A stretch of 64,000 nt of DNA from Tepidiformaceae bacterium (GTDB taxonomy: Bacteria; Chloroflexota; Dehalococcoidia; Tepidiformales; Tepidiformaceae), in NCBI GenBank assembly GCA_958295975.1, contig OY282446.1, forward strand, positions 1,279,289 through 1,343,288. The letters are read 5' to 3'. How positions within the stretch are numbered: position 1 is the first letter of the stretch; each line of letters begins with the position of its first letter. The notes below the pieces were generated by a model that did no database searches, was not told the origin of the DNA, and was given only the letters and a program-made list of their open reading frames with translations. The translations under genes were made by a program, and so were the position numbers. This document shows, in pieces, positions 1,310 through 35,085 of this stretch.

Positions 1310-1973
1310 CGGGGACCGTCTCGCAGTCCAGCGCGCGCGCGAACTGGCGCGTGAACGCCTCCGCCGCCTGCGCCACCGTCACGGGCCGGCCCGCCTCCGC
1401 CGACAGGCTCGTCATCTCCGCGTCCGCCAGCCCGCAGGGGTTCATGAGCGCGATGTGCCCCATGTCCGGGGCCACGTTCAGGGCGGCCCCGTGCATGGAG
1501 ACGAAGCGCCGCACGTGCAGCCCCACGGAGCCGATCTTGCGCCCGCCCGTCCACACGCCGCGCGCGCACTCGTGCCGCCCCCCTTCCACCCCCCACTCCG
1601 CCAGCGCCCCGATCATCGTCTCCTCCAGCGCCGCCACGTAATCCACCACGCCCACGCCCCAGGCGCGCAGGTCGATGATGCCGTAGGCCACCAGCTGCCC
1701 GGGCCCGTGGTAGGTGATGTCGCCCCCGCGCTCCGTGCGCGCCAGCGCGATGCCGCGCGCCCGCACCTGCTCCACCGGCGCGCGCAGGCTCGGCTCGGGG
1801 CGGTTCCGTCCCAGCGTGAACACGGGCCGGTGCTCCGTGAGCAGCAGCGTATCGGCGCCCTCGCCGCGGACGCGCTCCGCCTGCAGCCGCCGCTGCAGCG
1901 CGTGGACCTCGTCGTAGTCGGTGAGCCCCAGGTCGCGCACCACGACGCGGCGGCGGGAAGGCGCGGACGGCAT
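1287..1973 (-). CDS. lipB: Octanoyltransferase LipB
   Basis: Transfers octanoyl from acyl carrier protein to the lipoyl domains of 2-oxoacid dehydrogenases or GcvH, the first step of endogenous lipoate synthesis in the cytoplasm. The 228 residues carry the family signature RGGDITYHGPGQL (82-94), the conserved lysine in GGRKIGS (Lys146) and the catalytic cysteine in NPCG (Cys180). Length is normal for LipB. ATG 1973 is preceded by TACGCT seven bases upstream. No lipA is visible nearby. The 3' end overlaps the convergent DUF2277 gene. Confidence 0.95.
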   Translation of the reverse strand: MPSAPSRRRVVVRDLGLTDYDEVHALQRRLQAERVRGEGADTLLLTEHRPVFTLGRNRPEPSLRAPVEQVRARGIALARTERGGDITYHGPGQLVAYGIIDLRAWGVGVVDYVAALEETMIGALAEWGVEGGRHECARGVWTGGRKIGSVGLHVRRFVSMHGAALNVAPDMGHIALMNPCGLADAEMTSLSAEAGRPVTVAQAAEAFTRQFARALDCETVPATGGAGG

Positions 1974-7394: not shown

Positions 7395-7742
7395 CTACTC
7401 CGCCTTCACCAGCCCGATGCAGTTGCCGTCCGGGTCCGCGAAGAGCGCGAAGGTGACCGCGCCGGGCACCTCCGTGACGGGCACGATCACGCTCCCGCCC
7501 CGCGCCTCGATCTCGTCCAGCTTCGCCTGCGGGTCCTCCACCTCGATGTAGAAGGTGGCCATGGGCGGGCCCTGCGCGGCGGCGATGCCGCCCGCGATGC
7601 CCGTCCCCCCGCCCGTATCGACCATGCCGTAGCCCATCGGGTTGTCGGCGTCGATGCTCCAGCCGAACAGCTCGCCGTAGAACGCGCGCGTGGCCGCCGC
7701 GTCCGTGCCGTTGATCTCGAAATGCACCACCGGTGCGCCCAT
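7395..7742 (-). CDS. VOC (glyoxalase/bleomycin-resistance fold) family protein
   Basis: A 115-residue metal-dependent-fold protein with paired beta-alpha-beta-beta-beta modules: VVHFEINGTDAAATRAFYGELFGW, then MATFYIEVEDPQAKLDEIEARGGSVI and a final FALFADPDGNCIGL. This is the usual layout of small glyoxalase-like dioxygenase or resistance proteins; substrate unknown. ATG 7742 is chosen because GAGGAGGGA lies just upstream. It sits 31 bases after the UGSC selenoprotein gene on the same strand, probably one operon. Confidence 0.85.
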   Translation of the reverse strand: MGAPVVHFEINGTDAAATRAFYGELFGWSIDADNPMGYGMVDTGGGTGIAGGIAAAQGPPMATFYIEVEDPQAKLDEIEARGGSVIVPVTEVPGAVTFALFADPDGNCIGLVKAE

Positions 7743-7773: not shown

Positions 7774-8292
7774 CTAATCGACGAGCGCCGCGATCACTTC
7801 GTCCACGATCGCGTCCGCCTTCTCCCGCATCTCCGCGTCCGTCGCGTCCTGGATGGGGTGGGGCACGAAGAGGCGGCGCACCTCCGGCAGCCCCAGCGTC
7901 TCCGCCTGCGCCGCCGCCGCGTCCACGAACCCGTCCGACGCGATGAACACCGAGGGCGTGCCGTTGATCTCGAACCAGGTCGCGTCGTGCACACTGCACG
8001 TCGTGCACGACCCTCAGTCGGCCAACCCCTCCACCACGAAGTCCGCCTCCTGCGCCACCTCGCGCCGCAGCCCCTCCGGGGCCGGCTTCGTGAACGTGGG
8101 CTTGGCGTAGCGCCGCACCTCCACCTCCGGCAGGCGCTCGCGCAGGCGCGTCTCCAGCCGGTCCAGCAGCACGTCCCCGCGCGGCTTCGAGATGTCCAGC
8201 AGCGCCACCGTCCCCCGAATCGCCTCCGGCCTGCGCGCCAGCGACCGGCGCACCGGCCTGCGCTCGTCCGTGGGGTCCAGAATCGTCGTCAT
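7774..8292 (-). CDS. UGSC-family selenoprotein (in-frame UGA = Sec)
   Basis: A 172-residue product if the in-frame TGA at 8014-8016 is read as selenocysteine. The first part (MTTILDPTDERRPV, GTVALLDISKPRGDVLLDRLE, VEVRRYAKPTFTKPAPE, ADFVVEGLAD) runs straight into U-G-S-C-T-T-C-S-V-H-D and FEINGTPSVFIASDGFV. The Sec-Gly-Ser-Cys motif at exactly this point defines the UGSC (seleno)protein family, otherwise found with Cys. A 9-bp perfect hairpin sits directly after the UGA. GGGAGG precedes ATG 8292 and TATACT (8327-8332) lies further up. The biochemical role of the family is unknown; a thiol/selenol redox function is inferred. Reading it as two short genes would break one conserved protein. Confidence 0.88.
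7984..8011 (-). promoter_or_regulatory. Putative bacterial SECIS hairpin in the UGSC gene
   Basis: Starting three bases after the UGA, GTCGTGCAC pairs perfectly with GTGCACGAC around the 10-base loop GACGTGCAGT. A stem-loop with a G-led apical loop about 12 bases past UGA matches where bacterial SECIS elements recruit SelB. The loop opens at base 12 after the UGA. Confidence 0.7.
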
Positions 8293-8326
8293 GGGACGCC
8301 TCCCGCGGCAATCGCGCCGCCCGCCC

Positions 8327-8347: not shown

Positions 8348-10831
8348 CTACCGCTCCGGCGCGAACTCCACGCTCCAGAGTTCGCCGCCGTCGCCGTACT
8401 GCCCCGTGCGGACGCCGGCGATGGCGTAGTCGGGGAGGGGCATGGCCGCCACACACCGCCCGTCGAAGCGCATGCCACGCAGCGTGAAGCGGAAGTCCAG
8501 ATTGTCGAACCCGTGCCGCCGGCGCTCGCTGGGCAGATCGCCCGTGTCAACGGGCGTCAGGTGCAGGAAGAACCAGTCCCGCGTGTCTTCTGGAGCGCAC
8601 TGCTCCCGCACGTAGACCAGCTGGTTCTCGATGGCGTAGAGGTCGAAGGTCGAGCGGGCGACGGGGACGCTGGCCACGGCCTGCTCGTACGCCGTGCGCA
8701 GGAACCCGGCGAGGCCGGGCACGAACTCCACGCTCCAGACCATGCCGTCGTCCGTGTACTGCCCCGTGCGGACGCTGGCGATGGCGTAGTCGGGGAGCCC
8801 CACGGAGGCCACGCATCTCCCGTCGAATCTCGCCCCGCGCGCCCCGAAGCGAAAGTCCAGGTTGTCGAACCCATGCCGTCGGCGTTCATCGGGCAGGTCG
8901 TCCCGGTCAAACGGAACCGGATGCAGAATGAAGATTCCAGCCGTGTCCTCGGGAGCGCAGTGCTCCCGCACGTAGACCAGCCGGTCTTCACTGGAGTAGA
9001 TGGTGAAATTCGATCTGACGTCCGGCTCGCGGGTGATGGCTCGTTCGTATGTCGCGCGTAACGAATCGATGGCGCGATCCATGGGATCCCCAAAGGGCAC
9101 TCGATAGATCGCCCAGCGATACCTGCCGGGGGTGGGAGATCCGTCGTCAATGGAGACGTGTGGCGTTCCCTGTTGAAGAAATCCCGCCAGCGTGCGCGCA
9201 TGTGACAGAATTGCATAATCTTCCCTTCCCGATATACTCTGGTGGACATCCAGGAAATCGAGAAGGGTATCTTCCCGGACATAATTCACGAAGTAGTATT
9301 GCTTCCCGGGATTATCGGGAGGAAAGCGATGAAGTGCATCCGGAGAGGAAGAAAAAGAAATAGCAAGAACATCGGGCCAGCCCTTCCAGGTCAAGGTTTC
9401 ACGATCATCTCCACGAAAGAAAGGCTGATATTCCGTGAAGTATCGAAACAGGGAGTATTCCTGTTCGACATCGCTGGTGAATCCGTGGCTGTATACGTAG
9501 TTTCTTTCTTCGGGGAGTCGGGAAAGTTCCGCGAGAATGGCACTGTCGGCACTCCGGGCACTGTGTTGAAACAGCGTCTGACTTGAAAAATTATAGTAAT
9601 TGATCGCAAGAAAAAAAACAATGAAAGATAGGATCGCAGAGGATACGGCTCTGGATATCCACGGAGAAAAACACCGCGAATAGATTATGATGTATTTCAC
9701 GGAAAACGCCATCATCAGTGCCAAACCCGGCAGTATGGGATACCAGTAGCGCAGAGTTATATCCCAAAATGAGAAAATGGTAACGAAGTAAATCGACACC
9801 ACCTGTCCAATGAGAAACAAGAGAAAAAGAGTTTCTCCATCACGCCTTCTCCTGAAGAACCTGATAATGGCGGCCATTGCTGCCATCCCCGTGAGAAGCA
9901 AAAAGACAGCGGTAACTAGGAGAGAGGTCTCTGCCTGAAATAACCCTAGGAAAACAAACTCCGCATGGCTGGTGAACGATCCGGAAGAAACCCCGGAATC
10001 GTAATTTCCAGAAGCAACGTATACCCTGAAGGACGTGAAGGCGAAGAGAAAAACGAGTGGTATCGCCCCAATGAGCTTTCTTCTCCTGCCGGTACTGATG
10101 CAGACATACACGATATACGCAAGCATGATCCAAAATGCGACCGCCAGATTGACTTCCTTGGAGAGAACGAGACCGGTGTAACCGAGCAGGAACAGGCTGT
10201 ACTTCATGCCGCCCGATCGTATCCATCCCTTGACTTCCCCGCCTTTCAGCGTGAGGGCAACCGCCAGCGTGCAGATGCCGAGAAAAAAGACCGTGTAAAC
10301 TTCCTGGGGTGACAGACGGGAAGCGGGAGAGTTGGGAAAAAACAGCCAGACGTAAACCAGAAACGCCATCGGAATTGCCGGAAGCATCCAGGTCCTGTCG
10401 GTTCCCCCCTCTCCTTTCGCACTGGCAAACTGGAGGAAGGCCGCCGCGAACATGAAGATCGCCGCGAAATGGAATATCCATCTGCTCAGGTGATGCAGCC
10501 AGGGGTTGGTTCCGAAAACGCTCCACGCCGCCGCATTATAGAAATCCCAGAATGGCCGGTACCGCAGGACATCCGTGCCCAGAAACGTGAAATCGATCCA
10601 GTCCCGAAAAAGAGCGGGACTGGTGAAAATGACGCTGTATTTCCAGTCCGCATAGTCGTCAACCAGAGCAAAGGGGGTATCCAGCGAATACCGAAGAACG
10701 GGGATGAACAGCAGCGCGGCGGGGGTAAAAAACGCAATTGTCAGGATGCGGGCGCCGTGCCGGCGGCCCCACCGCGTCAGTGCCGCTTGCATACCGGCGG
10801 GATGGTACGACAGGCCGCGCGCGTTCGCCAT
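8348..10831 (-). CDS. GT-C-type membrane glycosyltransferase with two C-terminal repeat domains
   Basis: An 827-residue polytopic protein. Residues 30-420 hold about ten membrane segments, with an acidic first loop (LVDDYADWKYS) as expected for polyprenol-sugar-dependent GT-C enzymes. A soluble section follows, and the C-terminus has two copies (about 598-708 and 717-827) of a domain with the pattern YVRE-x-C, HGFDNLDF, FDGRCVA and LPDYAIA-x-VRTGQY. The same pair ends the glycosyltransferase at 44.5 kb. The membrane half is clearly AT-richer than the repeat half. ATG 10831 follows TAGCAC by six bases; ATG 10792 is an alternative. Probable role: surface glycosylation. Confidence 0.75.
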   Translation of the reverse strand: MANARGLSYHPAGMQAALTRWGRRHGARILTIAFFTPAALLFIPVLRYSLDTPFALVDDYADWKYSVIFTSPALFRDWIDFTFLGTDVLRYRPFWDFYNAAAWSVFGTNPWLHHLSRWIFHFAAIFMFAAAFLQFASAKGEGGTDRTWMLPAIPMAFLVYVWLFFPNSPASRLSPQEVYTVFFLGICTLAVALTLKGGEVKGWIRSGGMKYSLFLLGYTGLVLSKEVNLAVAFWIMLAYIVYVCISTGRRRKLIGAIPLVFLFAFTSFRVYVASGNYDSGVSSGSFTSHAEFVFLGLFQAETSLLVTAVFLLLTGMAAMAAIIRFFRRRRDGETLFLLFLIGQVVSIYFVTIFSFWDITLRYWYPILPGLALMMAFSVKYIIIYSRCFSPWISRAVSSAILSFIVFFLAINYYNFSSQTLFQHSARSADSAILAELSRLPEERNYVYSHGFTSDVEQEYSLFRYFTEYQPFFRGDDRETLTWKGWPDVLAISFSSSPDALHRFPPDNPGKQYYFVNYVREDTLLDFLDVHQSISGREDYAILSHARTLAGFLQQGTPHVSIDDGSPTPGRYRWAIYRVPFGDPMDRAIDSLRATYERAITREPDVRSNFTIYSSEDRLVYVREHCAPEDTAGIFILHPVPFDRDDLPDERRRHGFDNLDFRFGARGARFDGRCVASVGLPDYAIASVRTGQYTDDGMVWSVEFVPGLAGFLRTAYEQAVASVPVARSTFDLYAIENQLVYVREQCAPEDTRDWFFLHLTPVDTGDLPSERRRHGFDNLDFRFTLRGMRFDGRCVAAMPLPDYAIAGVRTGQYGDGGELWSVEFAPER
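8351..9040 (-). repeat. Two tandem copies of a ~110-residue C-terminal domain
   Basis: Copies at about 8351-8683 and 8710-9040 share HGFDNLDFRF, RFDGRCVA, LPDYAIA and VRTGQY. They are the GC-rich end of an otherwise AT-richer gene. Confidence 0.7.
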
Positions 10832-33336: not shown

Positions 33337-34296
33337 ATGCGCACCGGCCTGATGATCGAGGGGCAGAACGGCCTCAGCTGGGAGCGCTGGCTCCACGTCG
33401 CCGCGCTCGCCGACCGCCTCGGCTTCCACTCGCTCTTCCGCTCCGACCACTACTTCACGGGCGAGCGGCGCATGGCCTCGCTCGACCCGTGGCTCACCTT
33501 CGCGGCCATCGCGCGCGAACCCCACGGCTACCGCTTCGGCGCGCTGGTCACGCCGATCACCTTCCGCCGCCCCGTGAACGACGCGCGCATGGCCGCGCAG
33601 GTCGACCTGCTCAGCGGCGGGCGCTTCGTGATGGGACTGGGCGCGGGCTGGAACGAGGCCGAGCACCGCGCCCACGGCATCCCCTTCCCGCCGCTGAAGG
33701 AGCGCTTCGACCGGCTCGACGAGGCCGTGCGGCTCATGCGCGCGCTGTGGACGGAATCGCCCGCCGACTTCGCCGGGCGCCACTACCGGCTGGACGGGGC
33801 GGACGGGCTGCCGAAGCCCGCGCGGGGCCGCCCGCCCGTGCTCATCGGGGGCGCGGGCGAGCGCCGCACGCTGCGCATCGCCGCCGAACATGCGGACGAG
33901 TGGAACTGCGTGACCGTGACCGAGCCGGAGGGCTACGCGCGCAAGGTCGCCGCGCTTGAACGCCACTGCGAGGCCGTCGGGCGCGACCCCGCCGCCATCG
34001 CGCGCTCGATGATGGTCTTCGCGCTGGTCGCGCCCAACGAGCGCGCGCTGGCCGCCGTCACGGCCAAAACGATGGCGCACTTCGGGCTCGACGCGGACGC
34101 CGACCCGCGCGTCTTCCGCTCGCGCATGGAGGGCCGCGGCCTCCTCAGCGGGACCACGGACGAGGTGGTGGCGAAGCTGGGCGCGCTGGAGGAGATGGGG
34201 CTGGAGGAGATGGTGTTCCAGCACCTCGACTTCGACTCCGACGAGCTGCCGGAGTACCTGGCCGCCGAGATCGCGCCGCGCGCCGCCGCCCTCTAA
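33337..34296 (+). CDS. LLM-class F420-dependent oxidoreductase
   Basis: A 319-residue luciferase-like TIM-barrel enzyme of the F420-using type (TIGR03560-like). Blocks are GLMIEGQNGLSWERWLHVAALADRLGFHSLFRSDHY, GALVTPITFRRPVNDARMAAQVDLLSGGRFVMGLGAGWNEAEH and PPVLIGGAGERRTLRIAAEHADEWN. Substrate unknown. ATG 33337 abuts the stop of the AT-rich ATPase gene with no gap, and base composition changes sharply there, marking the right edge of the restriction cassette. Confidence 0.87.
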   Translation: MRTGLMIEGQNGLSWERWLHVAALADRLGFHSLFRSDHYFTGERRMASLDPWLTFAAIAREPHGYRFGALVTPITFRRPVNDARMAAQVDLLSGGRFVMGLGAGWNEAEHRAHGIPFPPLKERFDRLDEAVRLMRALWTESPADFAGRHYRLDGADGLPKPARGRPPVLIGGAGERRTLRIAAEHADEWNCVTVTEPEGYARKVAALERHCEAVGRDPAAIARSMMVFALVAPNERALAAVTAKTMAHFGLDADADPRVFRSRMEGRGLLSGTTDEVVAKLGALEEMGLEEMVFQHLDFDSDELPEYLAAEIAPRAAAL

Positions 34297-34323
34297 GCCG
34301 CGTCCGCCCGCCGCCTGTTCCGC

Positions 34324-35085
34324 TCAGGGGGCGTAGTCCACGCCGAGCTTGGCCAGCTCCGACACCAGCGTCTCCTCCACGATGAGGCCCGCGCCCCAGG
34401 CCCGCACCACGCCGTCCGCGTCGATGAAGAACGTGGTCGGCATCCCCGGCAGGCGGTAGTGCAGCGCGATGGCGCCCTCCGCGTCCAGCAGGGCGGGGTA
34501 GGTCGCGCCGAACTCGTCGAGCATCCCGATGGCCTCGTCGGCGGACTGCTCGAGGTTGACGCCGAGGAAGACGACCTCGCCGCCGAGCGCCTCGTAGGCG
34601 GCCTGGAAGTCGGGGATCTCGGCGCGGCAGGGGCCGCACCAGGTGGCGAACCAGTTGAGCACCACGGGCCTGCCGCGGAAGTCGGAGAGGCGCACGACGC
34701 GGTCGGGAGCGCGCGCGTTGGCCAGCGCGAAGTCGGGCGCGGGCCGTCCCACCTCGGGGCGGATGTCGCGGTCGATCACGCCCGTCGCGAGGTCCGCCGC
34801 GCCGATGGGCTCGTCCGCCGCCGCTTCCGTGGCGACGGGCGTGGCGTCCGCGTCGGGGGACGCGGTGGCGGTGGCGGCGGGCGTGGCATCCGCGTCGGGA
34901 GACGCGACGGCGGTGGCGGTCTGCTCGCTGACGGCGGGAGAGGCGGGCGTCGGGTCGTCGCCGTCGCCCGCGGTGAAGAGCCATGCGGCCAGGACGGCCA
35001 CGCCCACCGCCACCGCCGCCAGCACGGCATGGCCGCCGTACCGTCGCGCCAGCGCGAGCGCCCGTTCGCCCGTCGTTCCGTCCAT
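34324..35085 (-). CDS. TlpA/ResA-like membrane-anchored thioredoxin
   Basis: About 253 residues: an N-terminal membrane anchor (AVLAAVAVGVAVLAAWLF), a Thr/Ala/Asp-rich stalk with an imperfect repeat (ASPDADATP), then an AhpC/TSA-thioredoxin domain with PAPDFALANARAPDRVVRLSDFRGRPVVLNWFATW and the redox motif WCGPC (149-153), a cis-proline loop GMPTTFFID and GVVRAWG. It would reduce disulfides outside the membrane, for example in cytochrome c maturation. ATG 35085 is preferred over GTG 35106. Confidence 0.85.
   Translation of the reverse strand: MDGTTGERALALARRYGGHAVLAAVAVGVAVLAAWLFTAGDGDDPTPASPAVSEQTATAVASPDADATPAATATASPDADATPVATEAAADEPIGAADLATGVIDRDIRPEVGRPAPDFALANARAPDRVVRLSDFRGRPVVLNWFATWCGPCRAEIPDFQAAYEALGGEVVFLGVNLEQSADEAIGMLDEFGATYPALLDAEGAIALHYRLPGMPTTFFIDADGVVRAWGAGLIVEETLVSELAKLGVDYAP

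Follow-up and report, generated by a model that had tools for sequence, protein, structure and literature searches.

A UGSC-family selenoprotein gene of a Tepidiformaceae bacterium, its SECIS hairpin and its likely relation to the selenocysteine domain of GrdB

The 64,000-nucleotide stretch of Tepidiformaceae DNA analysed here (the window) carries a gene that is a genuine new member of the known UGSC selenoprotein family. Taken together, the comparisons below make it likely that the product is a true UGSC selenoprotein, decoded with the help of a SECIS hairpin and related to the Sec domain of GrdB and PrdB, which would work with a partner domain in a two-component reductase. Membership of the family is in itself ordinary; what is new here is a corrected SECIS, a corrected fold, the relation to GrdB and a near-obligate partner. 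In the ocean, few selenoproteins are more abundant than those of the UGSC family, with ~8% of the selenoprotein genes in one survey (PMC9402790). Should both the relation to GrdB and the near-obligate partner hold, it becomes directly possible to test what this abundant orphan selenoprotein does.

Gene, family and predicted fold

The features of the locus, all on the minus strand, are as follows.

7774..8292, minus strand: UGSC-family selenoprotein gene; Sec is residue 93, stop TAG; matched by NF041046 and PF24696
8014..8016, minus strand: in-frame UGA, predicted to be read as selenocysteine (U93) from TGA in 80 of 80 nearest homologues and the conserved downstream protein
8005..8016, minus strand: UGSC motif (UxxC), with the U93 selenolate and C96 as the presumed resolving Cys; aligns with UG[TS]C of GrdB
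8299..8304, minus strand: Shine-Dalgarno-like GGGAGG, 6 nt before the ATG at 8292, read from the sequence
7395..7742, minus strand: VOC/glyoxalase-superfamily protein adjoining the UGSC gene downstream; PF00903, E 1.7e-11
7986..8000, minus strand: bacterial SECIS hairpin, conserved; 7995-8000 pairs with 7986-7991 around the GUG loop 7992-7994
7984..8011, minus strand: 9-bp stem described earlier, an alternative fold (8003-8011 with 7984-7992) particular to close relatives

The frame from 8292 to 7774 runs from ATG through TGA (8016-8014) to TAG and encodes 172 aa, with U93 within ADUGSCTTCS. The initial annotation had placed a UGSC selenoprotein gene here by joining two frames through TGA 8014-8016 at the U of U-G-S-C, and the join, the position and the identity all hold. 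The window protein scores 160.9 bits against NF041046, the NCBIfam UGSC model (curated cut-off 125), and matches the Pfam UGSC model PF24696 over its full length (E 7.6e-49, 166.6 vs 25 bits). Its start, MTTILDPTDER, gives the same first residues as in most homologues, the UGSC motif is invariant in the homologue alignment, and UGSC was the sole significant family when 38 members were scanned with Pfam. The adjoining VOC protein was ruled out as a functional partner, as neighbour clustering did not find this adjacency in three or more relatives. The 827-aa membrane protein upstream of the UGSC gene (8348-10831, minus strand) ends in a tandem duplication, in which the repeat LVYVRE.CAPEDT...ERRRHGFDNLDFRF occurs twice, with another, partial copy. 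A thioredoxin-like match with an in-frame TGA at 34285-34737 of the window (minus strand) is an ordinary WCGPC TlpA-like protein, and the TGA is its stop.

UGSC proteins have been supposed to be thioredoxin-like, and PMC2398784 files them among thioredoxin-like redox families. Our AlphaFold2 model, built with 38 homologues (pLDDT 93.5, pTM 0.87), shows instead five alternating β-α units, with the Sec where strand 3 meets the following helix. Because these predicted units follow one another strictly, with no β-β hairpin in the order of secondary structures, we rejected the published thioredoxin-like fold, and the model argues for a flavodoxin/Rossmann-like one. Thioredoxin was not among the 50 best PDB fold matches, which proves nothing on its own; the best matches, AzoR, the flavodoxin domain of a flavodiiron protein and lumazine synthase, are generic Rossmannoid proteins and were discarded as clues to function. 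A sequence search of the solved structures with the UGSC alignment gave nothing at E 1 or below, and GrdB likewise gave none.

The selenocysteine half, GrdB and the partner protein

Around its Sec region, the second UGSC protein of the genome marginally matches glycine reductase selenoprotein B. When the UGSC and GrdB profiles were aligned with hhalign, Sec fell on Sec with a probability of 94.5-95.5% and E values of 8e-8 to 1.5e-8; E was 1.7e-5 with the motif masked and 7e-8 when only the part after the motif was compared. Reversed and column-shuffled profile controls scored at most 20.5, compared with 58-63 for UGSC and GrdB. The hhalign match to the PrdB Sec domain was weaker (probability 67, E 5e-5), and the N-terminal half of UGSC showed no profile similarity to GrdB. 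Chloroflexota GrdB genes read through the UGA give UGTCTRCG..KEIERAGIP..HPVGD, parallel to UGSCTTCS..WFEINGTP..HPIQD in UGSC. Judged from these profiles, we regard the Sec half of UGSC as a homologue of the GrdB Sec domain and, less strongly, of the PrdB one. PF07355, the GrdB/PrdB model, matched none of the 38 UGSC members, the window protein included; this model ends just before the Sec of GrdB. No passage on UGSC in the papers searched for the term connects the family with GrdB. Small proteins whose match to the GRDB model is confined to its C-terminal part, and in which reading through TGA gives UPxC, are widespread in Chloroflexota (e.g. L146-L160), and their annotation is probably truncated because PF07355 stops before the Sec. 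At L159, a short PF07355-like protein (matched stretch 1501-1908, plus strand, and just after) reads PAUPIUHQS, in which two in-frame TGAs three codons apart form UxxU, a possible double-Sec motif.

Of the 80 UGSC loci among the nearest homologues, 68 also encode a partner protein of ~530 aa, whose gene in 67 cases immediately precedes UGSC on the same strand. The partner begins with a ResA/TlpA-like thioredoxin domain, in most cases bearing CPTC, and its C-terminal ~350 residues matched no Pfam or NCBIfam model. Size and context suggest that this C-terminal domain is probably the 'Unknown_1' fusion domain described in PMC2398784. Across 400 Chloroflexota genomes it occurs in 41 of the 42 that have UGSC, compared with 1 of the 358 others (p 1e-53), and open frames of 550-670 aa indicate that part of these cases are single-chain fusions. 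The adjacent partner is missing at the window UGSC gene and at 11 close relatives; the host genome has one partner homologue elsewhere (1799408-1800940, 60% identical) and a second, without the thioredoxin domain, beside its other UGSC gene. Profile comparison found no similarity of the partner domain to GrdE, GrdB or UGSC, and in a fold search with the partner protein the match list was filled by its thioredoxin domain. The neighbouring genes in relatives encode acyl-CoA dehydrogenases, type III CoA-transferases, TauD dioxygenases, luciferase-like monooxygenases and MFS transporters, which weakly suggests the catabolism of unusual organic compounds. Three genomes (G122, G137 and G312) hold seven to eight UGSC paralogues each, a number that suggests different substrates.

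The function, which the initial annotation had called unknown, can be narrowed by the profile homology and the co-occurrence to that of a GrdB/PrdB-like Sec subunit with a near-obligate partner. The main competing explanation accepts a true UGSC selenoprotein and sees in it a general thiol/peroxide redox protein of the thioredoxin- or peroxiredoxin-like UxxC kind, with no GrdB-type substrate reductase. Such a role would agree with the UxxC motif, with the thioredoxin-like domain of the partner and with the family's place among thioredoxin-like redox proteins in PMC2398784; we nevertheless hold it to be rather unlikely, as the predicted topology of five strict β-α units is not a thioredoxin fold, the profile homology points to GrdB, and co-occurrence, almost one to one, with a second, non-thioredoxin domain better suits a dedicated enzyme.

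Decoding of the UGA and the SECIS hairpin

We compared the window gene with its 80 nearest homologues in other genomes, drawn from a collection of 84,980 genomes. All 80 have TGA at the U93 codon and read on to the same length with a conserved C-terminus, in which E108, P113, H145, P146 and Q148 are among the conserved residues. The conserved tail claimed for the fused protein is borne out in this set, where no homologue ends at the UGA without the downstream part. Nearly every UGSC family member in the 400 Chloroflexota genomes has one in-frame TGA; among the handful without it, one (L121) has Cys in place of Sec and others have lost the motif. The ocean tally in PMC2398784 is similar, with 255 Sec and 21 Cys forms of UGSC. 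Of the 1,115 TGAs in the window, a simple scan picked out 73 with a suitably spaced 6-bp G-loop hairpin, and nine of these 73 lie between long open frames; TGA plus hairpin alone is therefore not rare in this GC-rich window, and it is the homology (80/80) that lifts the case above chance.

The host genome is a single contig of 2.40 Mb, and all its Sec genes scored above the curated cut-offs: tRNA-Sec with anticodon TCA (69.6 bits), selA (512.7 bits), selB (288 bits, full 620-aa frame) and selD (346.8 bits, which also contains an in-frame UGA). The Sec machinery that the initial annotation had asked for elsewhere in the genome is hence present. The selD gene (L100, genome 1262122-1263051) is itself a selenoprotein gene, its in-frame TGA falling within the active-site loop (SCGG-U-ASKAG). 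The host genome has another UGA-containing UGSC gene at 1723365-1723865. One other UGSC genome, G344, has no selA and two more have weak selA matches only, gaps that are probably due to incomplete assemblies. In G344, a UGA-containing UGSC gene that has a good SECIS (G344:C35:28845-29375, in L127) stands in a genome that is 98% complete with no selA found, where a contig may be missing or another route may exist.

On this converging sequence evidence the UGA at 8014-8016 is decoded as Sec, with incorporation of selenium predicted. Two frames split by a TGA may look by eye like the remnants left by a pseudogene, a frameshift or a sequencing error with the TGA as a real stop, but this reading has next to no probability and is already refuted by the same TGA in 80 of 80 independent homologues with conserved residues on both sides, alongside a covarying hairpin and a complete Sec machinery. 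Equally negligible is a genome-wide reassignment of TGA, for example to Trp, which would account for the open frame and nothing beyond: TGA is the terminal stop in 29 of the 80 homologous genes, which rules out general reassignment as the initial annotation had argued from ordinary TGA stops, the motif is Cys-rich with Cys at the Sec position in the rare homologue L121, and a tRNA-Sec with the TCA anticodon is present.

The earlier description of a perfect SECIS-like hairpin holds in part. In the window the 9-bp stem pairs exactly; its first base is the third after the UGA, and its loop opens with G at +12, but the conserved SECIS is a different, inner hairpin, C-G-U-G-C-A / GUG / U-G-C-A-C-G, whose loop begins 20 nt after the UGA. 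Across 37 diverse members the inner hairpin is 98.2% paired, with 15 compensatory cells and compensatory change in four of the six pairs; its covariation is 0.299, compared with 0.102 for shuffled and at most 0.054 for slid controls, and RNAalifold picks it unaided. The 9-bp stem, 75% paired across 37 members and with covariation no higher than that of shuffled letters, was rejected as the SECIS, being broken in a quarter of the cells and free of covariation. The two structures share the 3' arm and so cannot coexist. Folded in isolation, the 9-bp stem has -15.6 and the inner hairpin -7.4 kcal/mol, and the region of the 9-bp stem has an MFE z of -2.3. Presumably a ribosome positioned on the UGA would keep this codon and the next 12 bases open, and with these held open the inner hairpin is the best fold (MFE) in 35 of the 37 sequences. 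Judged from its compensatory changes, the inner 6-bp GUG-loop hairpin is the conserved SECIS, lying just 3' of the UGA and carrying G in its apical loop. Its opposite arms encode residues 99 and 102, which change together (C/H, W/H, A/A, G/L, S/F), so their conservation is partly a matter of RNA and not of catalysis. An RNA hairpin inside a coding region can dictate residues in this way, which warns against calling residues 99 and 102 catalytic.

Proposed reaction and comparison with known systems

In the reaction proposed for PrdB, the selenolate attacks the α-carbon of a substrate held by the pyruvoyl subunit; a cysteine of PrdB then resolves the selenoether, leaving a selenenyl sulfide for PrdC or thioredoxin to reduce (PMC3091704). 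Homology and genomic context lead us to propose the same logic of attack, resolution and reduction for UGSC. SelB and Sec-tRNA-Sec would read the UGA at 8014-8016, helped by the inner hairpin at 7986-8000. The product, as a stand-alone relative of the GrdB/PrdB Sec domain, would form a two-component enzyme with the partner, whose second, C-terminal domain is the probable holder of the substrate. Attack by the U93 selenolate on an activated carbon or hetero bond of this substrate would give a selenium adduct, which C96 would resolve to a selenenyl sulfide; the partner's CPTC thioredoxin domain, or another thioredoxin, would re-reduce it. In the host genome the partner would be supplied from elsewhere and not from a gene adjacent to the window UGSC gene. 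The host genome has no match to PF07355 and none to PF09338 (GrdE/PrdA), the pyruvoyl partner that is absent from nearly all relatives too; with no GrdB or GrdE in the genome and a partner domain not detectably related to GrdE, the GrdB chemistry may not carry over. More speculatively, UGSC and its partner might constitute a new class of two-component Sec-dependent reductive lyases, derived from the GrdB/PrdB Sec domain, without a pyruvoyl subunit and with the thioredoxin reductant in the partner, which aerobic marine and sponge-associated bacteria would use to cleave recalcitrant organics; we put this forward as a tentative possibility.

Compared with the UGSC family (NF041046/PF24696), the window protein shares the UGA-encoded UGSC motif, the length and the N-terminal ILDPTDER block; the window gene lacks the adjacent thioredoxin-plus-partner gene found in 68 of 80 relatives and is otherwise an ordinary member. 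The UGSC hairpin resembles the E. coli fdhF SECIS in its apical stem, UGCA-(G-rich loop)-UGCA, and in its spacing from the UGA, with a loop that starts 18-19 nt after the UGA in fdhF, but it has a GUG triloop and no bulged U. In the case of GrdB (PF07355, TIGR01917), the likeness covers the Sec at a strand end in U-G-[TS]-C, the helix, the E..G.P strand and the HP..D block, a tail after the Sec of 79 aa in UGSC and 86 in GrdB (436-350, PMC3091704), and a SECIS hairpin at the matching place. GrdB has a UxxCxxC motif (PMC13188914), which the window protein shares (U93, C96 and C99). UGSC is, however, half the size of GrdB, shows no detectable similarity to it upstream of the Sec strand, and occurs here in a genome without GrdE. 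PrdB and the short PrdB-like proteins are likewise small proteins with a related Sec domain and UxxC (Sec 152/242, PMC3091704), although the Chloroflexota members seen have UPxC instead of UGSC, and PrdB works with the pyruvoyl PrdA and PrdC, whereas UGSC would work with another partner.
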